64,000 nucleotides of DNA from Verrucomicrobiaceae bacterium (GTDB lineage Bacteria; Verrucomicrobiota; Verrucomicrobiia; Verrucomicrobiales; Akkermansiaceae), in NCBI GenBank assembly GCA_027486655.1, contig JAIXOR010000051.1:124001-188000 (forward strand), given 5' to 3'. The translations under genes were made by a program, and so were the position numbers. Under the pieces are notes generated by a model. The model was given only the letters and a program-made list of their open reading frames with translations. It ran no database searches and was not told where the DNA came from. Below are positions 49,337 through 64,000 of the stretch, one piece after another. The first letter of the stretch is position 1. The number at the start of each line of letters is the position of its first letter.

Positions 49337-51664
49337 ATGAATCACCCGTCCTTTTCCGCGCTGATGCGCGGCGTGCTGGCCTCCGCCCTTGTCGTGGGGA
49401 TGGCTCCGGTCCTTGCCGCGGCCACCTTCACCGTCACGCCGTCGTCCAACCCGGTGAATTCCTCGTATACCAAGTACACCACCTACAACAGCTACACGAA
49501 GCAGTATTACATGCTCCGGTCCTATCTGGAGAAGCTGGAGGCCTCCGGGGGCGGGACCCTGAATCTCTCGAAAGGCACCTACACCGTGCCCTCGACCCTG
49601 TATGTGTCGGGAAAGGTCACGATCAACCTCGCCGACGGTGTGGTTCTGGCCAAGGGCAACAACACCGGCACCTCGAAGTTCACCGCCAGCCGCAGCCTCT
49701 TCCAGTTTGTTTCCACCGCACGTTCCCTGAAGACCGCGGCGGCCAAGGGCTATGGCGGCGAGTCCGGCATCCGCATCTACGGCAAGGGCTCCGCCACCAT
49801 CGATATGAAGAACGTCAATGGCAGCGTGGCCATGGTGTTCGGAAACAACTCGGACGTCATCGTCAAGGGCATCACCTTCCGCAACATGTATGACGGCAAC
49901 TACATCCGGATGTCCGCATGCAGCAATCTGCGCATCCTGCGAAACCGCTTCCTTGCGGCCAAGCCGACCGCCTCGCTGAACAATCCCGCCATCCTTCTCT
50001 GCGTGCCGGACGCGGTGACCGACAACTTCGCCTACGCCTGGAGCGCCGCGGACAAGACCCCCAACACCGGCATCACCATCAGCGGCAACACTTTTGACGG
50101 TGTGGAGCGGGCCATCGGCAGCAATGTTTACACTCCGGCCGTCTATCACAAGGCCGTCACCATCCGCAACAACACCATCCGCAACACAGGCTCCGACGCC
50201 ATCCGGGCGATCAACTGGGAAGGCGTCGTCTTCACCGGCAACACGCTCGAAAACATCCGCCCCGGCGAGGATTTCCGCGGTCTTCTCGGCAGCGGGGTCC
50301 GCGGCATCACCGCCTCGGGAAACATCTTCCGCAACCTCGGCCGGCCGATGCAGTTCATGCCGTACCGGAATCTGAGCGTGGGATCGAGCTACCCGGTGAC
50401 CTACAACGTGCTCGGAGATGCCGACCGGGAGTCGTTCAAGGACAACCAGGCCACGGACTGCCGCGAGGAATTCGTGCGGATCAACAAGGTGTTTGAGGAG
50501 TTCGAAAAGGAAACCGACTACGTCTATGTGGGTCCGGAAAGCAACAACCTCGTGATCAATCCGGATTCGAGGAACTACAAGGGGGCTTACCAACATTCGG
50601 AAACGAACACCTATCAGACGCGCCACTATTTCCTGATCCGCTCGTGCATGGAGGCTCTGGAGCGGCAGGGCGGAGGCACGCTCGTCCTTGAGGCCGGCAT
50701 CTACCGCCTGAGCAACTCGGTGGCTGTGCCATCGAATGTCACGATCACCTTCAGGGATGGCGTCGTGGTCCGCAAGATCATGGAAACCGGCACCCCCAAG
50801 TTCGACGAGGCGCTGACCATGTTCGAGTGCATCAGACCGTCGCGGGCGACCACGGCCGGCATTTACTCGCGCTACAACGGCGAGACCAACATCCACTTCA
50901 AGGGCGAGGGGAACGCGAGGATCGACCTCGATTCCGCCCTCGAGGCCATCGCCATCACCTGCGGTCACAACACCAACATCTCGGTGTCCGGACTCCGGTT
51001 CACCAACAGCAACAAGGGGCACTTCATGGAGGTGGATGCCACCAGCGGCATCGTCATTTCCGGAAACACCTTCGAGGGCTCCATCGCCTCGCCCAAGCAG
51101 AACGACGAGGCGATCAACCTGGACACTCCGGACCTGAGAACCCAGGGCTTTGACTACGTGTGGACCACCTATGACTCGACGCCGAACCGCGACGTGCTCA
51201 TTGAAAACAACCTGTTCCGGAACCTCGACGTCGCCGTGGGGACTCACATGTATTCGCAGGACAAGTTTCACACCAACGTGGTCATCCGGAACAACACGAT
51301 GAACACGACCCGGCGGGAAGCCATCCGGATGCTGAACTGGAAGGACGCCATCATCGAGAACAACCTGATCATGAACGTCGCGGACAAGCCGGACGGCACC
51401 CAGAACCGGGGCATTCTCGCGAGCGGCGTGAAGAATCCGATGATCCGCGGCAACACCTTCAGGAACATGTCCAGACCCATCCAGTTCATGCCCTTCCAGG
51501 ACGGGAAAACCGGGTATCCGCCGACCTACAACCGGATTTTCGCCGCCAACCGCCAGGCGCTGCAGACCAATACGCTGGTGAACGTGGTGGAGACCTTTGT
51601 CCGGATCAACACGATCCTCGGCGAGTTCTTCGCCGGGACGGAAAAGATCGAGATCGGCAACTGA
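49337..51664 (+). CDS. secreted beta-helix protein with two tandem copies of one domain
   Basis: The 775-residue product has a signal peptide (residues 1-29, ending LAAATF). Two homologous halves of about 370 residues follow. The first opens QYYMLRSYLEKLEASGGGTL and the second HYFLIRSCMEALERQGGGTL. Both then repeat the order NVTITFRDGVVV-like strand, SGNTFDG/SGNTFEG, VVIRNNTMN-like, and a closing RPMQFMPY/RPIQFMPF. The fold is a right-handed parallel beta-helix, seen in polysaccharide lyases and depolymerases. No lyase catalytic set is recognisable. It converges with the oxidoreductase gene with a 1-nt gap. Confidence 0.88.
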   Translation: MNHPSFSALMRGVLASALVVGMAPVLAAATFTVTPSSNPVNSSYTKYTTYNSYTKQYYMLRSYLEKLEASGGGTLNLSKGTYTVPSTLYVSGKVTINLADGVVLAKGNNTGTSKFTASRSLFQFVSTARSLKTAAAKGYGGESGIRIYGKGSATIDMKNVNGSVAMVFGNNSDVIVKGITFRNMYDGNYIRMSACSNLRILRNRFLAAKPTASLNNPAILLCVPDAVTDNFAYAWSAADKTPNTGITISGNTFDGVERAIGSNVYTPAVYHKAVTIRNNTIRNTGSDAIRAINWEGVVFTGNTLENIRPGEDFRGLLGSGVRGITASGNIFRNLGRPMQFMPYRNLSVGSSYPVTYNVLGDADRESFKDNQATDCREEFVRINKVFEEFEKETDYVYVGPESNNLVINPDSRNYKGAYQHSETNTYQTRHYFLIRSCMEALERQGGGTLVLEAGIYRLSNSVAVPSNVTITFRDGVVVRKIMETGTPKFDEALTMFECIRPSRATTAGIYSRYNGETNIHFKGEGNARIDLDSALEAIAITCGHNTNISVSGLRFTNSNKGHFMEVDATSGIVISGNTFEGSIASPKQNDEAINLDTPDLRTQGFDYVWTTYDSTPNRDVLIENNLFRNLDVAVGTHMYSQDKFHTNVVIRNNTMNTTRREAIRMLNWKDAIIENNLIMNVADKPDGTQNRGILASGVKNPMIRGNTFRNMSRPIQFMPFQDGKTGYPPTYNRIFAANRQALQTNTLVNVVETFVRINTILGEFFAGTEKIEIGN

Positions 51665-54317: not shown

Positions 54318-55340
54318 ATGACTTTTCGGAACATCACGATCCTCGGAGGCGGAGCCATGGGCACTGCTCTGGCGATCAATCTTGCGAAGAAGTCACAAAT
54401 CACCCTGGTCTTCCGCTCCGAAGAGGACGCCGCGAAAGTCCGCGAAGGCCGCATCAACCAGCGCTACCTGCCGAAGGCGGTGATTCCGGACGAGGTTCGG
54501 ATCGAGTCGGACCTCGCCGCAGCCCTCGCTGGGGCGGATCTGGTGCTCATCGCCACGCCGGTCAGCGCCTTCGGGGAGATGCTCGGCCAGGTCGCGCGAA
54601 TCCGCACGGACATCCCGGTGATCTGGGGCTGCAAGGGCCTTTGCCCGGTCTCCGGTGAGCCTCTTTCCGTGGCCGCGGAACGCATCCTCGGTCCGGAGGC
54701 CTGCTTTGGAGTGCTTTCCGGGCCCAGCTTTGCGGAAGGACTCGCCGCCAATGACCCCACCGCGGTGGTAGTCTCCACCAACAAGGACCACCGGACCGAC
54801 CTGCGGGTGGCATCCGGCCTTTCGAACAGAACCCTGCGGGTTTACGCAAACTCCGACCTCGTCGGCGTGCAGATCTGCGGGGCGATCAAGAACGTGTATG
54901 CCATCGCGGCCGGCGTCATCGACGGCTGCGGATGGAGGGAAAACACACGCGCCGCCATGATCACCCGCGCCGTGGCGGAAGCCCGTCGCTATCTCAAGGC
55001 CCACCGCTCGAAACGCTCCACCCTGATGGGACTCTCCGGCTTCGGCGACATTTACCTCACCTGCGGCAGCCGCACCTCCCGCAACTACCAGGTAGGCATC
55101 GGCCTGGCCGCCGGAACCCCGCTCGAGACTGTGCTCGGCAACCTCGGCCACGTGGCGGAAGGTGTGAACGCCGCCCGTTTGATCCTCAAGCGCGCCGCTC
55201 TGCTCGGCGTGGAGATGCCCCTGGTGGAGGCCGTCAATGACATCCTCGACGGCAGGAAGACCCCCCAGGAATGCGCGACGGCGCTGATGACCCGCGAGAT
55301 CAAGCACGAAAAGGCGGGCCTCAAGCAAAGTGTGGCTTGA
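54318..55340 (+). CDS. gpsA: NAD(P)-dependent glycerol-3-phosphate dehydrogenase
   Basis: GpsA reduces dihydroxyacetone phosphate to sn-glycerol-3-phosphate, normally for phospholipids. The 340-residue product has the Rossmann motif ILGGGAMGTALAINLA, WGCKGL, SGPSFAEGLA, the catalytic Lys in CGAIKNVYAIAAG, and LSGFGDIYLTC. Standing directly before a CDP-glycerol-forming gene (39-nt gap), this copy probably feeds the surface polymer pathway; whether another gpsA serves lipids cannot be seen here. Confidence 0.95.
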   Translation: MTFRNITILGGGAMGTALAINLAKKSQITLVFRSEEDAAKVREGRINQRYLPKAVIPDEVRIESDLAAALAGADLVLIATPVSAFGEMLGQVARIRTDIPVIWGCKGLCPVSGEPLSVAAERILGPEACFGVLSGPSFAEGLAANDPTAVVVSTNKDHRTDLRVASGLSNRTLRVYANSDLVGVQICGAIKNVYAIAAGVIDGCGWRENTRAAMITRAVAEARRYLKAHRSKRSTLMGLSGFGDIYLTCGSRTSRNYQVGIGLAAGTPLETVLGNLGHVAEGVNAARLILKRAALLGVEMPLVEAVNDILDGRKTPQECATALMTREIKHEKAGLKQSVA

Positions 55341-55379: not shown

Positions 55380-55781
55380 ATGCGCACCGTCATCACCTAC
55401 GGAACTTTCGATCTTCTCCACATCGGCCACATCAACCTGCTGAAACGTGCGAGAAACCTGGGTGACCGCCTCATCGTCGCCGTCTCGACCGATGAATTCA
55501 ACCTGCGCGAGAAGGACAAGGTCTGCACCCACACCTACGAGGACCGCAAGGCCATCCTGGAAGCCCTGCGCTTCGTCGATCTGGTTATCCCGGAGGAAAA
55601 CTGGGAGCAGAAATCCACCGACGTCGACAAACACGGGGTGGACGTCTTCGTCATCGGGGACGACTGGGAAGGACGCTTCGATTTCCTCAAAGAGAAATGC
55701 GAGGTCGTTTACCTGCCGCGCACCGCCAACATCTCCACCACCGAGATCAAGAAGCAGATTCTCACCGGATCATGTACTTGA
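55380..55781 (+). CDS. tagD: glycerol-3-phosphate cytidylyltransferase
   Basis: The 133-residue enzyme makes CDP-glycerol from CTP and glycerol-3-phosphate. It begins MRTVITYGTFDLLHIGHINL, with the HIGH nucleotidyltransferase motif, and has VIGDDWEGRFD and the second signature RTANISTTEIKK. Length and motifs match TagD of Gram-positive wall teichoic acid synthesis closely. The LicD gene starts immediately after its stop, so the two are co-transcribed. In a Gram-negative-type genome it implies a CDP-glycerol-using polymer pathway. Confidence 0.95.
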   Translation: MRTVITYGTFDLLHIGHINLLKRARNLGDRLIVAVSTDEFNLREKDKVCTHTYEDRKAILEALRFVDLVIPEENWEQKSTDVDKHGVDVFVIGDDWEGRFDFLKEKCEVVYLPRTANISTTEIKKQILTGSCT

Positions 55782-57155
55782 ATGGGATCTCTCCTCATGG
55801 CGAAAGGGATGAACGGAAGCCCCGGCGCTCGGGAGGCGTTTGATACGCTCCGCGTGCTGACCCGGGAGGGTGGTTTCCGCATCTTCAAAGTCTGGCTCCA
55901 CAAGCTCTTCTGCGACCGCGGCGGCTTCCGCCCGTGGATTTCCTGGATGGCTCTGCGGGCCGAGTTTCTCTGGTCGAGTGGAAATCACGACGAACTGAGA
56001 AGCCTGGCCACCTATCTGGCCCAGGAACATTCATCCACCCTCGGCTGCTACTACCTCGCCCAGGCCGCCCACATCCGCGGTGAACTCGATGAAGCGCTCC
56101 GCTGGCTGGACCGCCTCGCCAAGCTGAGCCCGGACCACTCGGACGGACTCCTGCTCAAGGCCACCTGCCACGCCGAACAAGGCGACCGCGAACAAGCCTG
56201 GGACATCCTCTCCAAGATCGTGGTGACCCGCCCCCGCATCAAGGCGTGGCAGCAATTGGCCAATCTCGTCGATTCACCCGCCGGGTTTTCCCGTCTGGAA
56301 ACCCTGCGCGAAAAGGCCGCCGCCGCCGGGATCATCAGCGCGGGCCGCACCGATGTGCTCAACCACGTGGCCCTGGGTGCCATGCGCGCCGGAGACTACG
56401 AAGCCGCCAAATCCATCTGGCGCACCATCCTCAAGGCGCGGGCCTCGACGCCGGGCCGCAAGCGCATGCGCCGGCCGAAGATCGACATCTACTCCAGGGG
56501 CCGTGCGGAGAAAGCCCTGCTCGATCTCAACCGGGTGCTGCGGGATGCGGGCATTTCCATGTTTCTCGTCAGCGGCACCCTCCTCGGCTGCGTTCGCGAA
56601 GGACGTCTTCTCGGACACGACAAGGACATCGACGTCGGCGTGAACGCCGACACACCGCTCGACGAGCTGCTCGGCGCCGTGCGCCAAAGCGGCTTGTTCC
56701 TCATCATCCCCTCCCGCTCGCCCGAGATCATCCGCCTGCGGCACGTCAATGGCATCCCTCTCGACATCTTCTTCCATTACGACGAAGGCGGCATCCGCTG
56801 GCATGGCGGCGTGAAGATGCGCTGGCACAACAGCCCCTTCGAGCTGATCGGGCGGGACTTCCTCGGCGATGTCTTCCTGGTCCCGGCAGATCACGATCGC
56901 TACCTCACCGAAAACTACGGCCCGGACTGGCGCACGCCGCAGCCGGACTTCGACTCCGCCTTCGACACCCCGAACCAGCAGATCATCCAGCCGGACGAGA
57001 TGCGGATCTACGCCTTCCGCCAACTGCACACCTACCTCAGCTCGGGAAACCAGGCGAAGGTGGAGATCTACCTGAACCGCCTCGTCGAACTCGGCGAGGC
57101 CGACCTGGCCGGGGAGATCCGGAAGGCGGCAGGGCATCCGGACCGCGCGGACTGA
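55782..57155 (+). CDS. TPR protein with C-terminal LicD-type transferase domain
   Basis: The 457-residue product has TPR-like helical pairs over residues about 45-225 (for example YYLAQAAHIRGELDEALRWL). The C-terminal LicD/nucleotidyltransferase-fold domain has GTLLGCVREGRLLGHDKDID with acidic residues D280, D282 and D284, then PLDIFFHY. LicD enzymes transfer phosphocholine or related phospho-groups to glycans. It begins on the base after the tagD stop (an ATG 18 nt later is possible). The domain order is mirrored, with changes, in the last gene of the operon. Confidence 0.88.
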   Translation: MGSLLMAKGMNGSPGAREAFDTLRVLTREGGFRIFKVWLHKLFCDRGGFRPWISWMALRAEFLWSSGNHDELRSLATYLAQEHSSTLGCYYLAQAAHIRGELDEALRWLDRLAKLSPDHSDGLLLKATCHAEQGDREQAWDILSKIVVTRPRIKAWQQLANLVDSPAGFSRLETLREKAAAAGIISAGRTDVLNHVALGAMRAGDYEAAKSIWRTILKARASTPGRKRMRRPKIDIYSRGRAEKALLDLNRVLRDAGISMFLVSGTLLGCVREGRLLGHDKDIDVGVNADTPLDELLGAVRQSGLFLIIPSRSPEIIRLRHVNGIPLDIFFHYDEGGIRWHGGVKMRWHNSPFELIGRDFLGDVFLVPADHDRYLTENYGPDWRTPQPDFDSAFDTPNQQIIQPDEMRIYAFRQLHTYLSSGNQAKVEIYLNRLVELGEADLAGEIRKAAGHPDRAD

Positions 57156-57174: not shown

Positions 57175-60100
57175 ATGGCAGAAGAAACTCCAGGCGAATC
57201 CCCCCAAGCCGCTGCCCGCATCAAGCGGTGCTGGATCCACGTCGGCATGCACAAGACCGGCAGCTCGTCGATCCAGCAGACCCTCGCCGCCCTCGGCAAG
57301 GGCCCGGATTGGAAACTCCTCAGCGTCGACAAGAACCCGAACCTCGGGAAGGCGATGTACGCCATGTTCGGCAAGAACCCGGAAAACTTCATCTGGTTCG
57401 CCAAACGCGGGGAGACTGCCGAACAACTGGCCAAGAAGCGTGAGCTCATGCGCCGCCGCTTCGAGCTCCTCATCCGCAAGAGTCCCGAGGAAAACCTGAT
57501 CCTCTCCACCGAGACGCTTTCCATCATGGCCAGCGAGGAAGTGGCCGCGCTCAAGGAGTTCCTCGCCCCGCTCTTCGACGAGATCAAGGTGATCGGATAC
57601 GTCCGGCCTCCCTCCGCGTTCAAGACCTCCTGGTTCCAGCAACTCGTCAAACACGGCGAGAACAAGCTGGACCCGAACCGCATCAAGGCGTCCTACCGCA
57701 AGCGCTTCGGCAAGTTCGACCGCATCTTCGGCAAGGCCCATGTGAGCCTCAAGCTCTTCGATCCCGCCGGTTTTCCTAACAGCTGCATCGTCACCGACTT
57801 CCTGACCCGCATCGGGGTGGCTCCCCTGCCTCCCGAGAAGATCCTGCGGGTGAACGACAGCCTGTGCCGCGAGGCCTGCGCCATCCTCTTCGCCTACCGC
57901 AAGCTGGGCCCCGGCTACGGGGTTGGCAAAACCGTGGTCACCGAGAATCTCAAGCTCATCGCCCCGCTGCTGGAAATGAAGGGCACGCGCCTCAGGCTCG
58001 CGCCGGAGCTGCTCGCCCAAAGCCTTTCCAACGAATGGGAGGACATCGCCTGGATGGAGCGTCGCCTCAAGACCTCCTTCCGGGAAACCCACGAATCCGA
58101 CGGCAGCCAAGTCCGCAGCGAAGACGATCTGCTCACGATCCCGCGCGCGGCCTGCCTCGATTATATCCGCAAGTTCCATGAAGTGCACGGCATCGAGGTT
58201 TCGGAAGACATCGTCCCAAGTGCCGATCCCGTCCCCCCCGCCGAGGTCGCGGCAATGGTCGAACATTGCAGGGATTTGATCCGCAACGCGGACGCTCCCG
58301 AACCAGCCGCTGAGGATGACGCCGGGGCCGAAGCGCCCAAACGGCTCTGGATCCACATCGGCATGCACAAGACCGGCACATCGTCCATCCAGACCAATCT
58401 CGCGAGGATCGGCAAAGGCGAAGGCTGGCGCTATCTCAAGCTGGACGGTGCCAACATGGGAAAATCGCTCCACGCGATGTTCGGGACCAATCCCGCGAAC
58501 TTCCACCTCTATGTCAAAGCCGGCGACACCCCGGAAGAGATCGCACGCCGTGGCGCCACACTGCGCCGCAAACTGGAGTTGATGATCCGCCGCAGCGGCA
58601 GGGACACGCTGATCATCTCCTCCGAGATGCTATCCAACATGTCCGCCGAGGAAGTCACCGCCTTCCGCGACTTCCTGGCCCCGCTTGTGGACGAAATCCG
58701 CATCATCGGCTACGTCCGCCCGCCCTCCGGCTTTGCCGTCTCCTGGTTCCAGCAGGCCGTCAAACAAGGATCCGGCGAGCTCGACCTTGCCAAGCTCAAG
58801 CCCAACTACCGCAAACGCTTCGAGAAGTTCGACCGGATCTTCGGCCGCGACCGCGTGAAGCTTTGTTTCTTCGATCCCGCCGCCCTCACCCGCGGCTGCA
58901 TCATCGCGGATTTCTGCGAACAGACCGGCATTCATCCGCCGGACCCCGGCTCGATCACCCGCGTCAACGAAAGCCTCGGCCGCGAGGCCTGTGCCATCCT
59001 CTTCGCCTACCGCAAACTCGGCCCGGGCTTCGGCGTGGGACCGGATGTCCTCACCGAGAACAACCGGCTCATCCGCCCGCTCATCGCCATGGGCGGCACC
59101 AAGCTGCGCTTTTCCCAATCGCTCCTCGACCAACTGTGCCAGCGCAACCTCAAGGACATCGAATGGATGGAAAAACGCATCCGAATGAGCCTGCGCGAGG
59201 AAGTCCAGTCCGACGGAAGCGAGGTCGGTGACGAAAGCGATCTGCTGAACATCCGCAACCAGGACTGCGCCGAATTTCTCGCCAAGTTCCAGGAAGTCCT
59301 CGGCATCGAGACGACACCGGACCTGCTGCCTTCAGCCGATCTCGTGGATCCCGCCGACGTCTCGGCCATGGTCGAGCGCTGCCGCGAACAGATCCGCTCC
59401 CAGATCGCCGCGGAAAGATCCACCGCGGCAGCCAATCCCGATGCCAAGCCGCTCAAATGCCTGTGGCTCCACATCGGCATGCACAAGACCGGCACCTCGT
59501 CCATCCAGGCAAACCTTTCTCAGGTCAAGAACCCGCAAGGCTGGCGATACCTCAAGCTCGATGGACCGAACATGGGAAGGTCCCTGCACGCGATGTTCGG
59601 CAAGGACCCCCAGAACTTCCACCTCTATGCCAAGGCCGGCGACAGCGCCGAGGAAATCGCACGCCGCGGAGCCGCCCTCCGCCGCAAGCTGGAGCTCATG
59701 ATCCGCCGCAGCGGGGATGACACGCTCATCCTCTCCTCGGAGATGCTCTCCAACATGTCCAAGGAGGAAATCACCGCCGTGCGCGATTTCCTCGCTCCAT
59801 TGGTCGACCGGATCCAAGTCATCGGTTACGTCCGTCCGCCGGGGGGCTTCGCCGTCTCCTGGTTCCAACAAGCGGTCAAACAAGGCTCGGGCGAACTCAA
59901 TCTCGACAAGCTCAAACCCAACTACCGCAGGCGCTTCGCGAAGTTCGACGAAGTTTTCGGCAAGTCCGCGGTGAAGCTTCGCATCTTCGACCCCGCCACC
60001 CTCGCCAAGGGCTGCATCGTCGCGGATTTCTGTGAGCAAACCGGCATCCAGCCGCCCGCCCCGGAATCGATCGTCCGCGTCAACGAAAGCCTCAGCCGCG

Positions 60101-61800
60101 AAGCCTGCTCGCTTCTTTTCGCCTATCGCAAGTATGGCCCGGGCTTCGGTGTGGGGCCCACCGTGCTCACCGAGAACACACGCCTCATCCGCCCGCTCAT
60201 CGCGATGCAGGGCAGCAAGCTCCAGTTTTCGCAGTCGCTTCTCGACGAGATCCGCACCCGCCATCTCAAGGACATCGCATGGATGGAAAAGCGTCTCCAA
60301 CTGAGCCTCAGGGAAGAGATCCGTCCGCTTGGCACCGAGGTCAATGGGGAGGAAGACCTGCTGGACATCCGCCGCGTCGATTGCACGAACTTCCTCAAAC
60401 AATTCCGGGACGTTCTCGGACTGGATCCCACCGATGACCTCCTTCCGGCATCCGACCCGGTCCCACCTCTGAAGGCCGCGGCCATGGTCGAGTCCTGCCG
60501 CGCACTGATCCGCCGGGACATCCTCGAAAATTCGGAATCCGGAGAGGAAGTGCACATGAAGTGCCTCTGGCTGCACATCGGCATGCACGAAACCGCATGC
60601 ACGACCCTCCGGGACAGCCTCACCCGCAGCCCGCTGCCCGCGAACTGGCGCATCCTCAACACGGGAGGCAAGCCCAACATGGGACAGGCCTTGCAAGCGA
60701 TGTTCGGCGAGAAGCCGGAAAGCTACGTCTGGTTCGCCCGCCGTGGCGAAACCGCCGAACAACTCGCCGCCCGCAGGATCGAACTCCGCAAGGACTTCGA
60801 AAACGAGATCCGATCGTCCACCGAAAGCAACCTGATCGTCTCCTCCGAGACCCTTTCCATCATGACCGCCGGCGAGATCAGCGCGCTGTATGAGTTCCTC
60901 AGGCCGATGATCGACGACATCCGGGTGCTGGCTTACGTCCGCCCACCGGAGTCCTTCCTCGGAGCTTGGTTCGAGAGGCAGGTCCGCATGGGAACCGGCG
61001 ACTTCCAGGCTTCCAGCCTGAAGACGAGCTATCAGTTCCGCCTGCGCAAGTTCGACACGATCTTTGGCAGGGAGAAGGTCGTGCTGCGTCTCTTCGACCC
61101 CGCCTTGTTTCCCAACCGGGATGTCGTCGCGGACTTCAGGGCCGTCGTCGGACTTCCCGCACTGGAGACGCCTTCCGCCATCGAAGCGGAAACCCCGATG
61201 TCCAGGGAAGCCCTCGGCATGCTTTTCGCGTATCGGAAATTCGGCCCGGGTTACGGAGTCGGGCGCAGCGTCGTCGAGGAAAACAACCGCTTGATCCAAG
61301 CCGCCCTGGCCCTCAAGGGACCGCCGGTCCGCTTCGCCGCCACATGGATCGAGCAAGCGCTTGAAAGCCAGGCCAAGGACATTGCATGGGTCGAGAAACG
61401 CCTCGGCATGAGCGTCAAGGAATCACCACCCACGGAAGGATCCGAGATTGCCGACGAATCCTCGCTCCTGAGCATCCGCATGTCCACCTGCTGGGACTTT
61501 GCCGATCAATGCCGCAGCCTGTTCGGCATCCGGGTCACCCCCGCATTTCCGCGCTCCGCAGAGATCGTGCCGCCGCAACAGGTCGCAGCGCTGGTCGAGC
61601 AGTGCCGGGAAGCCATCCGCGAGACGCTGGAACCCTCGGGCATGGTCCGCAGACTCAAGCGCTTCGTTGCGAGAAAACGGCGCGCACTTGGCACCTTGCT
61701 GGCTTCCCCATCGGAAAGCTCCGCTGCAAAACGCAGTCCGAAGAAACCCTCTTCGCCGAAGCAGGGTCGTGTTTCGGAAGATGATGGAGCCGTTCGCTAA
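57175..61800 (+). CDS. four-unit tandem sulfotransferase-like protein
   Basis: The 1541-residue product contains four homologous units starting near residues 18, 390, 762 and 1130. Units 1-3 carry the 5'-phosphosulfate loop GMHKTGSSSIQ or GMHKTGTSSIQ (K27, K399, K771) and the 3'-phosphate site in YVRPPSAFKTSWFQQ-like segments (R144, S152 in unit 1). Unit 4 has GMHETACTTL and RPPESFLGAWFE: Lys to Glu, Gly to Ala and Ser to Ala, so it is probably inactive. PAPS-dependent sulfation is inferred from the motifs. There is no signal peptide. The C-terminus is basic. It lies 19 nt after the LicD gene. Confidence 0.88.
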   Translation: MAEETPGESPQAAARIKRCWIHVGMHKTGSSSIQQTLAALGKGPDWKLLSVDKNPNLGKAMYAMFGKNPENFIWFAKRGETAEQLAKKRELMRRRFELLIRKSPEENLILSTETLSIMASEEVAALKEFLAPLFDEIKVIGYVRPPSAFKTSWFQQLVKHGENKLDPNRIKASYRKRFGKFDRIFGKAHVSLKLFDPAGFPNSCIVTDFLTRIGVAPLPPEKILRVNDSLCREACAILFAYRKLGPGYGVGKTVVTENLKLIAPLLEMKGTRLRLAPELLAQSLSNEWEDIAWMERRLKTSFRETHESDGSQVRSEDDLLTIPRAACLDYIRKFHEVHGIEVSEDIVPSADPVPPAEVAAMVEHCRDLIRNADAPEPAAEDDAGAEAPKRLWIHIGMHKTGTSSIQTNLARIGKGEGWRYLKLDGANMGKSLHAMFGTNPANFHLYVKAGDTPEEIARRGATLRRKLELMIRRSGRDTLIISSEMLSNMSAEEVTAFRDFLAPLVDEIRIIGYVRPPSGFAVSWFQQAVKQGSGELDLAKLKPNYRKRFEKFDRIFGRDRVKLCFFDPAALTRGCIIADFCEQTGIHPPDPGSITRVNESLGREACAILFAYRKLGPGFGVGPDVLTENNRLIRPLIAMGGTKLRFSQSLLDQLCQRNLKDIEWMEKRIRMSLREEVQSDGSEVGDESDLLNIRNQDCAEFLAKFQEVLGIETTPDLLPSADLVDPADVSAMVERCREQIRSQIAAERSTAAANPDAKPLKCLWLHIGMHKTGTSSIQANLSQVKNPQGWRYLKLDGPNMGRSLHAMFGKDPQNFHLYAKAGDSAEEIARRGAALRRKLELMIRRSGDDTLILSSEMLSNMSKEEITAVRDFLAPLVDRIQVIGYVRPPGGFAVSWFQQAVKQGSGELNLDKLKPNYRRRFAKFDEVFGKSAVKLRIFDPATLAKGCIVADFCEQTGIQPPAPESIVRVNESLSREACSLLFAYRKYGPGFGVGPTVLTENTRLIRPLIAMQGSKLQFSQSLLDEIRTRHLKDIAWMEKRLQLSLREEIRPLGTEVNGEEDLLDIRRVDCTNFLKQFRDVLGLDPTDDLLPASDPVPPLKAAAMVESCRALIRRDILENSESGEEVHMKCLWLHIGMHETACTTLRDSLTRSPLPANWRILNTGGKPNMGQALQAMFGEKPESYVWFARRGETAEQLAARRIELRKDFENEIRSSTESNLIVSSETLSIMTAGEISALYEFLRPMIDDIRVLAYVRPPESFLGAWFERQVRMGTGDFQASSLKTSYQFRLRKFDTIFGREKVVLRLFDPALFPNRDVVADFRAVVGLPALETPSAIEAETPMSREALGMLFAYRKFGPGYGVGRSVVEENNRLIQAALALKGPPVRFAATWIEQALESQAKDIAWVEKRLGMSVKESPPTEGSEIADESSLLSIRMSTCWDFADQCRSLFGIRVTPAFPRSAEIVPPQQVAALVEQCREAIRETLEPSGMVRRLKRFVARKRRALGTLLASPSESSAAKRSPKKPSSPKQGRVSEDDGAVR

Positions 61801-61815
61801 CCCAACTTCCCCACC

Positions 61816-64000
61816 ATGAGACCGTCCTCCCTGGTTTACTACACAGCGTTTGCCGCTGAGAAATCCGGCCTCTCCGGCTTCGCGGAGAATTCCTACCGGT
61901 TCGCCGCGGAAAAGCTCGGCGATCCGGATGCCTGGTTCCGCCTCGGCCGACAGGCCTTTCAAAAAGGTGCGTGGGTCCAGGCCGCCACCTTCTTCGGCAA
62001 TTCCTCAAAACTCCGGCCGGACCACGCCGAAAGCCATTTCAAGACCGGCCTCTGCCTGCTCAAGCAATCCAAGTGGGTCGAAGCCGAGGCCGCCATCAGC
62101 ACCGCCATCAAACTCGATCCCGGCCAAGCCCAATGGCGGGTGCAACACCAGCAGGTCCTCGAAAAGATCGGCAACGCCCCCACCGCCACGCACGAGATTT
62201 ACCAGTCCCTTAAGGATATCTCCGGACTCGTCGGAGTCCTCAAGAGCCTTACCCTCGGAGAGGATTTCGCCTCATTCGACACCATCCTTCAAACCATCCA
62301 CACCACCTATGGCCAGGACATGCCCGCACTCGATGCGAGGCTCGCCTTGATGGAATTGGAACGCTTCGCCGCCGCCGGCCTCCACGATCGCGGCCGCGAA
62401 ACCGTGAAACAGATGCTCCCGGACACCCTCCGCTCCGACATCGGCAAAGGCCTGCTGGCCTTTTCGGAGGGTCGCTACAAGGAGTGCGTGAACCGCCTGG
62501 AAGGCCACGGGGATGAATTGATCCGCGACCAACCCGCCGTCCGCCTCTTCGCAAGAGCGGCGAGATTCGCAGGCCTCGACGAACTCGGGCTCTCGGTGAT
62601 TCTCGAATTCCTCGACACCGGCGGTGACTCGATCACCTGGAAGGAAGCCTCGCTGCTGGTCAAAGATCGCAAGGGACTCAACCAGCTGCTGCGAACCTGG
62701 GACCGCTACCGCCGCGGAAGAAAGACCACCCCCCACCTCCTCAAGGTGGCCGGTTACGTCGCGGCTGCCGCGCTTCGTGCCGACAATACCAGCGAAGCGG
62801 AGCGGATCCAGTGCTCGAACATCCTGCTGTTCGGCAAGAAAAAGACCACCCGCCCACCCGCGCTCTTCGATCCGGCCACCCACCCGGACTATCAGAACCT
62901 GCCCTTGATGACCAACCCGCTCAAGGGTGTCTCCATCGCCTCGCTGGAGCGGGTCGCCCCACGCTACTTCCGGGCGCTCGGAGCCGTATCCTCGATTCTC
63001 GAAAGCAAGGGCTTCAACCACTCCGCCATCCGCAGGACCGTGGCCTTCGCCACCCTGCCGAAACTCGTGCCCGGCCTCGACGACACCGTGGACATCGGCG
63101 TGATCGGAGCGGACCGCCTCGATGAAGTGAATGCCCTCCTTCACAAGTCTCCCGACTTCCACGCCTCCGCCAACCCCGAGGCCGATGGCGGGATGATCTC
63201 TTTCCAACACGCCAATGGCATCACCCTGCGGATCTTCCTCATGAAGGCCGGCGATGGCGCTTGGACCCACGGATCGGATGGAGTGGAATGGAAAAACCGG
63301 ATCTTCCAGACCACCCTCAAGGACGTCCACGGCACGATGGTCCGGCTTCCGGAAGACGCCGCAGCGCACCTCGCCGAGTTCACCGAAGTGCCGGCGAAGA
63401 GAGCGACCGAAACCGACTACCTCGTTTCCGATCGCAACACCCGGGTCAGCGACTCAGGCCGCTTCATCTTCCACCTCCGCTCCCACCTCATCCACCTCAT
63501 GGCCTCCGGCGACGAGGAGGGAGTGCTGCGTTGCGTTCACAAACTCTCGGATCTCGGAGACACCGGCTTCGTCCGCGAGTTCCATGGTTCCTATCCCAAC
63601 TACGTGGATGCCAACCTGCCCCAGCTCCTCAAGGACAAGCCCCAGGTCATCCTTTATCTCTCCGGTCTGGAGGACGTCGCCTATCAGGGCAACATGTGGA
63701 TCCCCGTGCTGGAGAAACTGGATGCCCGCTGCGCCATCGCCATCCGCGAACGCCGCATCGCCCCGGGGCTGCTGCCAACCTCGATGCCGGTCTATTACTT
63801 CGACTCGATGCGCGACCTCGAATTCATGGAGGAATGCGGCGTGCGCACCATCCTCTATCCGGCAAACACCGCGAAGAACACCAACTCGCTGCGCTTCTTC
63901 AAGATCAACCACTTTTTCATCAACCACGGGGAAAGCGACAAGGTCGTCAACCAAAGCAAGTTCCTCATGGCCTACGACAAGCTCCTCGTCGCCGGGCCGC
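61816..64000 (+). CDS. TPR / LicD-like / CDP-glycerol glycerophosphotransferase fusion (3' end beyond window)
   Basis: The frame opens at ATG 61816 and stays open to the window end (728 codons). Residues about 5-120 form TPRs (AWFRLGRQAFQKGAW and SHFKTGLCLLKQSKW). Residues about 400-530 resemble the LicD domain two genes upstream, but its DKDIDVGV is DDTVDIGV here (residues 422-429), losing one acid. From about 600 the sequence fits TagB/TagF-type glycerophosphotransferases: YPANTAKNTNSLRFF and FINHGESDKVVNQSKF, with the likely catalytic His704. It starts 15 nt after the sulfotransferase gene and would use the CDP-glycerol made by TagD. Confidence 0.85.
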   Translation, partial: MRPSSLVYYTAFAAEKSGLSGFAENSYRFAAEKLGDPDAWFRLGRQAFQKGAWVQAATFFGNSSKLRPDHAESHFKTGLCLLKQSKWVEAEAAISTAIKLDPGQAQWRVQHQQVLEKIGNAPTATHEIYQSLKDISGLVGVLKSLTLGEDFASFDTILQTIHTTYGQDMPALDARLALMELERFAAAGLHDRGRETVKQMLPDTLRSDIGKGLLAFSEGRYKECVNRLEGHGDELIRDQPAVRLFARAARFAGLDELGLSVILEFLDTGGDSITWKEASLLVKDRKGLNQLLRTWDRYRRGRKTTPHLLKVAGYVAAAALRADNTSEAERIQCSNILLFGKKKTTRPPALFDPATHPDYQNLPLMTNPLKGVSIASLERVAPRYFRALGAVSSILESKGFNHSAIRRTVAFATLPKLVPGLDDTVDIGVIGADRLDEVNALLHKSPDFHASANPEADGGMISFQHANGITLRIFLMKAGDGAWTHGSDGVEWKNRIFQTTLKDVHGTMVRLPEDAAAHLAEFTEVPAKRATETDYLVSDRNTRVSDSGRFIFHLRSHLIHLMASGDEEGVLRCVHKLSDLGDTGFVREFHGSYPNYVDANLPQLLKDKPQVILYLSGLEDVAYQGNMWIPVLEKLDARCAIAIRERRIAPGLLPTSMPVYYFDSMRDLEFMEECGVRTILYPANTAKNTNSLRFFKINHFFINHGESDKVVNQSKFLMAYDKLLVAGP

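Follow-up and report, generated by a model that had tools for sequence, protein, structure and literature searches.

We analysed a 64,000-nucleotide stretch of a Verrucomicrobiaceae genome (contig JAIXOR010000051.1 of assembly GCA_027486655.1, positions 124,001 to 188,000; hereafter "the window"), in which one open reading frame (ORF) carries four consecutive units related to sulfotransferases that use 3'-phosphoadenosine-5'-phosphosulfate (PAPS). Units 1–3 retain the cofactor motifs of this class; unit 4 retains the fold and appears to have lost the PAPS site. We read the ORF as a fused array in which units 1–3 would sulfate a capsule-type glycan and unit 4 would be a non-catalytic partner or anchor. 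Taken as a whole, we give this reading an even chance of being correct.

Four units in one chain and the cofactor site of the fourth

The original prediction had described 57175–61800 as four sulfotransferase units at spacings of 372, 372 and 368 residues, and the description proved exact: GMH recurs at residues 24, 396, 768 and 1136 of the ORF, and YVRPP at residues 142, 513, 885 and 1254. Units 2 and 3 are the closest pair (70% identity), followed by units 1 and 2 (54%) and units 1 and 3 (about 49–50%), with unit 4 at 41–44% to the others. BLASTP comparisons between different units gave 305–543 bits, whereas none of 100 shuffled units exceeded 27.7 bits, and therefore the repeat is no chance similarity; the same scores, with the open frame, rule out a chance repeat or a misread frame. 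Collapsed or misjoined copies in the assembly are also unlikely, as the units differ at 30–59% of residues and the ORF is embedded in a contig of 216 kb.

We compared the units in an alignment of hits of at least 100 bits and at least 200 amino acids, leaving out pieces of the four-unit ORF itself and adding by hand the dead unit of a paralog from the same genome; it held 106 sequences, 105 after removal of one duplicate. Columns are numbered on unit 1, counted from residue 14 of the ORF, and "other units" denotes the 100 that remain when the four units of the ORF and the dead unit of the paralog are set aside, the live unit of that paralog included. As predicted, units 1–3 retain a P-loop of the form GMHKTG[ST]SSIQ and a 3'-phosphate motif of the form YVRPP......S, with the Ser at Arg+8. 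The predicted loss of the key Lys, Gly and Ser from unit 4 (GMHETACTTLR and YVRPPESFLGA) was likewise borne out, and two more conserved residues proved to be gone, giving the substitutions K14E, G16A, Q21R, S139A and N214E. All five of these residues are kept by units 1–3 and none by unit 4. Among the other units, K14 and G16 are each present in 98 of the 99 with a letter there, Q21 in 99/99, S139 in 96/100 and N214 in 100/100. The S139A change alone is not diagnostic, because four of the 100 have Ala there with an intact P-loop. Residues that unit 4 retains are H9, G11, M12, T15, N43, S98, E100, R131 and Y161. In NDST1, Lys614 is described as a PAPS ligand and the catalytic acid in the accessible text of PMC3733922; by motif, it would correspond to K14.

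Within the P-loop and 3' motif, the columns at which the other three units agree are changed in 1/15, 0/14 and 0/14 cases for units 1, 2 and 3, respectively. Unit 4 is changed at 10 of the 24 such columns where units 1–3 agree, and at 42 of 138 elsewhere. By this comparison of residues, the cofactor site of unit 4 has lost the protection seen in units 1–3. Four of its site changes are to Glu (K14E, Q142E, R212E and N214E). Net charge over 360 amino acids is +9, +3 and +10 in units 1, 2 and 3 and −1 in unit 4, with an isoelectric point (pI) of 6.5 in unit 4 versus 8.5–9.3 in units 1–3.

Units 1 and 4 were modelled with AlphaFold2 from 60-row alignments (the four own units, two from locus L025 and 54 of 69 candidates). 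Mean predicted local distance difference test (pLDDT) scores were 95.4 and 93.5, respectively, and the order of helices and strands was nearly identical. The best Foldseek matches of both models include sulfotransferases and P-loop kinases. In structural alignments (VIA-align), unit 1 aligned to 3rnl with Z 15.7 and a root-mean-square deviation (rmsd) of 3.8 over 219 residues, and unit 4 with Z 15.1 and an rmsd of 3.7 over 215 residues; next after 3rnl for both came NDST1 (Z about 15) and 3-OST structures (Z 14–15), with adenylate-kinase entries at 8–9.5. These matches to sulfotransferases span unit residues 1–293. A single-sequence search of solved structures gave no match at E 1, and the family profile picks up 3rnl at the sequence level (E 1.1e-7), the matched part running from the 3' motif to R.NES. 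The alignment of both models to 3rnl upholds the prediction that the units have sulfotransferase folds: units 1 and 4 are both, as modelled, of the PAPS-sulfotransferase fold, which units 2 and 3 presumably share from their 54% and about 50% identity to unit 1. Neither model contains a ligand, and the PAPS site of unit 4 was therefore judged from its residues only. The expectation that unit 4 has no PAPS site thus stands as far as the lost residues are concerned, an alternative site made of other residues having been assessed from sequence alone. We consider unit 4 to be probably a fold relative, and not an enzyme, of the PAPS-dependent sulfotransferase class.

Names from Pfam and NCBIfam were weak or misleading and were therefore not used to assign the class of the ORF. 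PF00685 (Sulfotransfer_1) has no match in the ORF, its one match in the genome (E 0.001) lying on contig C55. PF17784 (Sulfotransfer_4; cut-off 22.8 bits) is borderline, at 28.7 bits for the whole chain and 18.1 bits for unit 1 alone, with units 2–4 not listed. PqqF-like and DUF2255 names fell below cut-off in these scans.

Relatives, dead units and the origin of the chain

A scan with the unit alignment returned 119 relatives, and the best 80 of these, which we kept, come mainly from Proteobacteria, among them Rhodobacteraceae, Methylococcaceae and Halomonadaceae, and a few belong to other phyla; a scan of genome contigs with the whole chain as query found no relative. Counting the own genome, matches occurred in 7 of 195 relatives (E 1e-10) and 6 of 73 genomes of the genus (E 1e-12) and, at E 1e-15, in 9/260 genomes of the family, 3/384 of the class and 6/387 of the phylum, these sets overlapping. 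We counted units in 137 matching ORFs from 120 sequences (10 from the loci of the own ORF or its paralog), and same-family chains with more than one clear unit were found only in this genome, as the four-unit ORF and a paralog of 732 amino acids. A 391-amino-acid ORF in L068 is one unit split into two hits, and ORFs of 650–660 amino acids in L064 and L068 gave only weak partial hits. When 21 loci, 13 of which were new, were scanned again, no multi-unit chain appeared, and the 20 that had a hit showed one unit per ORF. The four-unit chain was found in no other genome scanned, viral contigs, phages, E. coli genomes and metagenomes lying outside the scans.

Plasmids gave 77 matching records, and the best of the 20 listed covers 83% of the query. 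This was rejected as a second four-unit chain, as its four pieces overlie one place of about 1 kb where a single unit matches all four. Phaeobacter accounts for 55 of the 77 records; in the eight of these that are listed (68–70 kb), the match is about 0.7 kb long and lies under a gene annotated as a hypothetical protein, in two rows as a glycosyltransferase too.

Loss of K14 is rare in the family. It was scored in 104 units (L118, which has no P-loop, was left out) and had occurred in three: unit 4, the N-terminal unit of the 732-amino-acid paralog and one Vreelandella gene. The paralog (L022 7481–9679, − strand, contig C86 of the own genome) joins an N-terminal unit without a P-loop to an intact C-terminal unit. 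Beside it are encoded a sulfotransferase-like protein of 391 amino acids, which scores 63 bits against the family profile, and a glycosyltransferase/Capsule_synth protein; a GDPD-like gene was recognised there by eye. The gene of Vreelandella glaciei (L039 4643–5914) is the middle one of a three-gene array and has a broken P-loop (GMPQTDASSIQ), both neighbours being intact. All three units thus lie in arrays or chains, where 32 of the 104 units are found (chance 0.027).

Separate genes side by side recur among the relatives. In a metagenome-assembled genome of the same genus (G010), two overlapping single-unit genes directly follow a homologous cytidylyltransferase, with Glyphos_transf and Capsule_synth genes near. 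Of the 78 named loci in which a family gene reached 50 bits, 13 contained more than one such gene, mostly side by side (2.9 kb apart in L032). In Candidatus Uabimicrobium amorphum, a stretch of 8.4 kb (L054 1071–9466) contains four separate genes of the family, the first with Ala for the 3' Ser. A divergent sulfotransferase-like type (GxGKTG ... Y[LA]GLM; 51–58 bits to the family profile) lies just upstream of a family gene in four genera (L029 4001–5938, L033 4872–5954, L039 2325–3350 and L043 2985–5495); it is fused to Sulfotransfer_3 in L029 and to LicD in L043, where a cytidylyltransferase intervenes before the family gene.

Fused sulfotransferases as such are not unique, because L029 and L044 hold chains with an other-family sulfotransferase (Sulfotransfer_3 and Sulfotransfer_2, respectively). 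Further partners are LicD (L043), a capsular polysaccharide synthesis domain (L118) and an MFS protein (L064 and L071), the first two of which fit surface-glycan work. Among ten long family proteins scanned, five more had a weak partner domain or none that was clear.

Trees were built from 103 rows (a quick tree, its careful search unfinished) and from 18 chosen rows (the small tree). Units 1–4 and both G010 genes form one clade (100/99), in which units 2 and 3 are sisters (100/99). Units 1–4 group together at 68/33, and a tree that joins units 1–3 to the G010 genes with unit 4 outside has a p of 0.391 in the approximately unbiased (AU) test. As the placement of unit 4 in the clade lacks resolution, we make no claim as to whether fusion came before or after the split. 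The relatives point to the fusion of a gene array, one member of which would have become a partner without catalytic function.

The gene neighbourhood

The host, which we place in Akkermansiaceae (Verrucomicrobiota), has a genome of 5.33 Mb that is 98.5% complete. The genes of the + strand from the glycerol-3-phosphate dehydrogenase through the TagF-like protein are separated by gaps of 0–39 bases and probably form an operon around the ORF (Table 1). Beyond the end of the window (L023) lie a GDPD gene on the same strand, a second Glyphos_transf gene on the opposite strand and a gene that is KpsC-like by family (Capsule_synth PF05159, 194.5 bits; L023 10860–12908), some 9 kb downstream from the ORF. 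By analogy, this neighbourhood resembles the gene set expected for supply of cytidine diphosphate (CDP)-glycerol and assembly of a TagF-like capsule-type polymer, with the cytidylyltransferase acting on its presumed substrate. Adenosine 5'-phosphosulfate (APS) kinase carries out the step that makes PAPS, and its gene is present on another contig of the genome.

A LicD-like part lies in the middle of the TagF-like protein (L023 1817–4690), at residues 383–598 (window 62962–63609), and matches the LicD domain of the gene preceding the ORF at 24% identity over 222 residues (E 2e-10). In it, GTLLG has become RTVAF and HDKDIDVG has become LDDTVDIG; these we take to be the catalytic LicD motifs, and a Lysobacter LicD protein (L043) carries GTLLG and HDDDID at the same positions. 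The operon thus appears from its motifs to hold a second decayed duplicate, with an intact LicD two genes upstream. Elsewhere in the window, a right-handed beta-helix protein of 775 amino acids (49337–51664, + strand) consists of two halves that are 35% identical over 362 residues (E 3e-79).

Table 1. Features of the four-unit ORF and adjoining genes (window positions; TPR, tetratricopeptide repeat; aa, amino acids)
Feature	Position	Strand	Basis or remark
NAD-dependent glycerol-3-phosphate dehydrogenase	54318..55340	+	Pfam
Cytidylyltransferase (probably TagD-like, from size and context)	55380..55781	+	Pfam CTP_transf_like
TPR and LicD-family domain protein	55782..57155	+	Pfam
Four-unit sulfotransferase ORF, 1541 aa	57175..61800	+	ATG start, open frame without internal stop
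Unit 1, cofactor motifs intact	57214..58329 (aa 14–385)	+	Motif alignment; AlphaFold2 model
Unit 1 P-loop (5'-phosphosulfate motif) GMHKTGSSSIQ	57244..57276	+	
Unit 1 3'-phosphate motif YVRPPSAFKTS	57598..57630	+	
Unit 2, cofactor motifs intact	58330..59445 (aa 386–757)	+	Motif alignment, 70% identical to unit 3
Unit 2 P-loop GMHKTGTSSIQ	58360..58392	+	
Unit 2 3'-phosphate motif YVRPPSGFAVS	58711..58743	+	
Unit 3, cofactor motifs intact	59446..60549 (aa 758–1125)	+	Motif alignment
Unit 3 P-loop GMHKTGTSSIQ	59476..59508	+	
Unit 3 3'-phosphate motif YVRPPGGFAVS	59827..59859	+	
Unit 4, predicted pseudo-sulfotransferase with basic C-terminal tail	60550..61797 (aa 1126–1541)	+	Motif alignment; AlphaFold2 model of aa 1126–1500
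In-frame ATG of unit 4, matching the start site of both G010 single-unit genes	60556..60558	+	Putative relic or possible internal start
Unit 4 decayed P-loop GMHETACTTLR (K to E, G to A, Q to R)	60580..60612	+	
Unit 4 3'-phosphate motif YVRPPESFLGA (Ser to Ala, Arg kept)	60934..60966	+	
Unit 4 EAE replacing RVN	61183..61191	+	Asn in 100/100 other units, Arg in 53/100
Basic C-terminal segment MVRRLKRFVARKRRALGTLLAS after unit 4	61642..61707	+	G010 single-unit genes likewise end in basic tails
TPR, decayed LicD-like part and Glyphos_transf (TagF-like), 957 aa	61816..64000, continuing to 64689 past window end	+	Pfam

The role of unit 4 and known systems

We propose that PAPS-dependent sulfotransferase genes of one unit each, standing in tandem in a capsule-type cluster, were fused into one chain, the direction presumably being from array to fusion. 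Units 1–3 would be catalytic, each holding PAPS with its P-loop Lys and with the Arg and Ser of the 3'-phosphate motif, and would move sulfate to the glycan of their own cluster, which would most likely be a glycerol-phosphate-containing (teichoic-acid-like) capsule polymer. Unit 4 would be a pseudo-sulfotransferase that has kept the fold and lost PAPS binding, most likely serving as a structural partner for the neighbouring unit, and its basic C-terminal tail may tie the chain to the membrane or to an assembly complex. We favour a partner or anchor because the fold is kept, the donor-site residues are lost, the pairing of dead with live units is repeated and the basic tail is like those in G010.

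A number of observations weigh against this proposal. Homologs of the glycerol-phosphate genes lie beside family genes in only 2 of the 80 named loci (single-sequence phmmer, E 1e-4, flanks of at most 6 kb), and therefore the wider family probably functions in other glycan clusters, the acceptor proposed here being suggested by the neighbouring genes. The changes in unit 4 are not concentrated in the two motifs named beforehand (10/24 vs 42/138, p 0.34). Inclusion of the 210–218 segment gave 16/30 vs 36/132 (p 0.009), a post hoc result, as the segment was added after the data had been seen; a concentration test by column conservation gave p 0.013 at 75%, 0.32 at 90% and 0.58 at 95%. Acidic changes are only borderline enriched in the site of unit 4 (4/16 vs 2/36, p 0.064), and Glu is also found at 142 and 212 in 3 and 7 of the 100 other units, respectively. 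The array test (0.027) was also post hoc; of the three dead units in it, two belong to the own genome and may not be independent. Compared with shuffles, the amphipathic character of the tail gave p 0.055 for the own tail and 0.014 and 0.28 for the two G010 tails. Synonymous distances between units are near saturation, so the ratio of nonsynonymous to synonymous change (dN/dS) does not prove selection on unit 4, and conservation of unit 4 over time cannot be seen, because no second genome has the four-unit chain.

One alternative is that unit 4 is a passenger in early decay, fused to the chain and having lost its PAPS site by drift, without a role; we regard this as possible but rather unlikely. 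Unit 4 has the longest end branch in the small tree (1.06 vs 0.19–0.51 for the others) and is changed in 52 of the 162 columns where units 1–3 agree, with changes that are not clearly concentrated in the cofactor site. However, its frame is open, its model has the high mean pLDDT given above, and it keeps 27 of 39 conserved columns (33–35 in units 1–3); its third-position GC (0.82) is like that of the other units (0.81–0.86), and the same genome has a second dead-live chain. We are similarly doubtful of unit 4 as an acceptor-binding module that holds the growing polymer while units 1–3 sulfate it, possibly processively, as the original prediction had suggested. Such a module would be consistent with the retained fold and the retained S98, E100, N43, R131 and Y161 (96–100% conserved in the family), and polysaccharide sulfotransferases are among the top-ranked folds for unit 4. 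Processivity, however, is not readable from sequence, and unit 4 is the least basic unit; binding of an anionic glycan is mildly disfavoured because positive charge has been lost and Glu stands at four site positions (14, 142, 212 and 214).

The in-frame ATG at 60556 raises a third alternative, that unit 4 is also made alone and acts as a free regulator or partner, which we consider improbable. The codon aligns with the starts of the G010 genes (MKCLW vs MKRCW), and units 2 and 3 have no Met there, but only a 4-base Shine-Dalgarno-like match lies upstream. Since five neighbouring gene starts score 0–3 and 159 of 579 internal ATGs in the scanned ORFs score at least 4, use of this start cannot be judged by Shine-Dalgarno matches. 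We find it very hard to credit that unit 4 retains activity by using a different donor or a PAPS site that has been rearranged. Although it keeps T15, the S98/E100 pair and the 3'-motif Arg, the P-loop Lys that would match NDST1 Lys614 (accessible text of PMC3733922) is replaced by Glu, and four further residues of the conserved set (Gly, Gln, Ser and Asn) have been lost together.

Enzymes that have lost their activity are known to serve as scaffolds, switches and allosteric partners. The four-unit chain, the 732-amino-acid dead-live chain and the intact LicD beside a decayed LicD lead us to speculate, at a stretch, that pseudoenzyme duplicates are a design rule of glycan assembly in this bacterium, with dead copies fused to live ones as scaffolds or allosteric partners that set the pattern of sulfation and glycerol phosphate in a capsule. 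We found no report of a tandem sulfotransferase chain with a built-in dead unit in the open-access literature searched, subscription papers lying mostly outside that search. A class of pseudo-sulfotransferases is not itself new, because pseudosulfotransferases are named in passing among known pseudoenzymes in the accessible part of PMC9539457. Having a dead unit in one chain with three intact units means that its effect on live neighbours is testable by removal. The locus links glycerol-phosphate-type genes and sulfotransferases in Verrucomicrobiota, and it would shed light on how surface glycans of bacteria acquire their sulfate patterns.

Among solved structures, 3rnl from Alicyclobacillus acidocaldarius shares with the units the fold over residues 1–293 and has a similar P-loop (GAAKCGTSSL). 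In contrast to the chain, it is a single unit of 311 residues, at only 15–16% identity in the structural alignment, and the units here carry extra C-terminal helices (about residues 300–360) beyond the range matched to it. The sulfotransferase domain of NDST1 and 3-OST-1/3/5 also have the fold in common with the units and act on polysaccharides; these are, however, animal enzymes at 8–13% identity, and the likeness is one of fold.

Comparable bacterial systems are known from publications of which the accessible parts describe the following. Pontiella, of the same phylum, has a sulfated glycosaminoglycan-like exopolymer and candidate sulfotransferase genes; these are described with PF13469, and no four-unit chain is seen in the accessible account (PMC7356697). 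The TagF-like capsule polymerases of Gram-negative bacteria combine, as here, a TagF-like (Glyphos_transf) part with TPR in a capsule setting, and removal of the TPR part of one turns an oligomer into a monomer (PMC5974469). Compared with what is described there, the protein next to our ORF differs in its adjoining sulfotransferases, its mid-protein decayed LicD-like part and its Verrucomicrobiota host.

By analogy, the closest published parallel that we found is the capsule of Cobetia marina KMM 1449, which contains both sulfate and glycerol phosphate and whose cluster has kpsSC and sulfotransferase genes (accessible text of PMC11766843). A fused sulfotransferase chain is present here only, none being seen in that part of the Cobetia marina account, and glycerol phosphate there is attributed to WcbQ, annotated as a lipoteichoic acid (LTA) synthase, whereas the genes here are of the CDP-glycerol type. 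Common to both, as far as this source describes it and as the genes of our locus indicate, are Kps-type capsule genes together with sulfotransferases.

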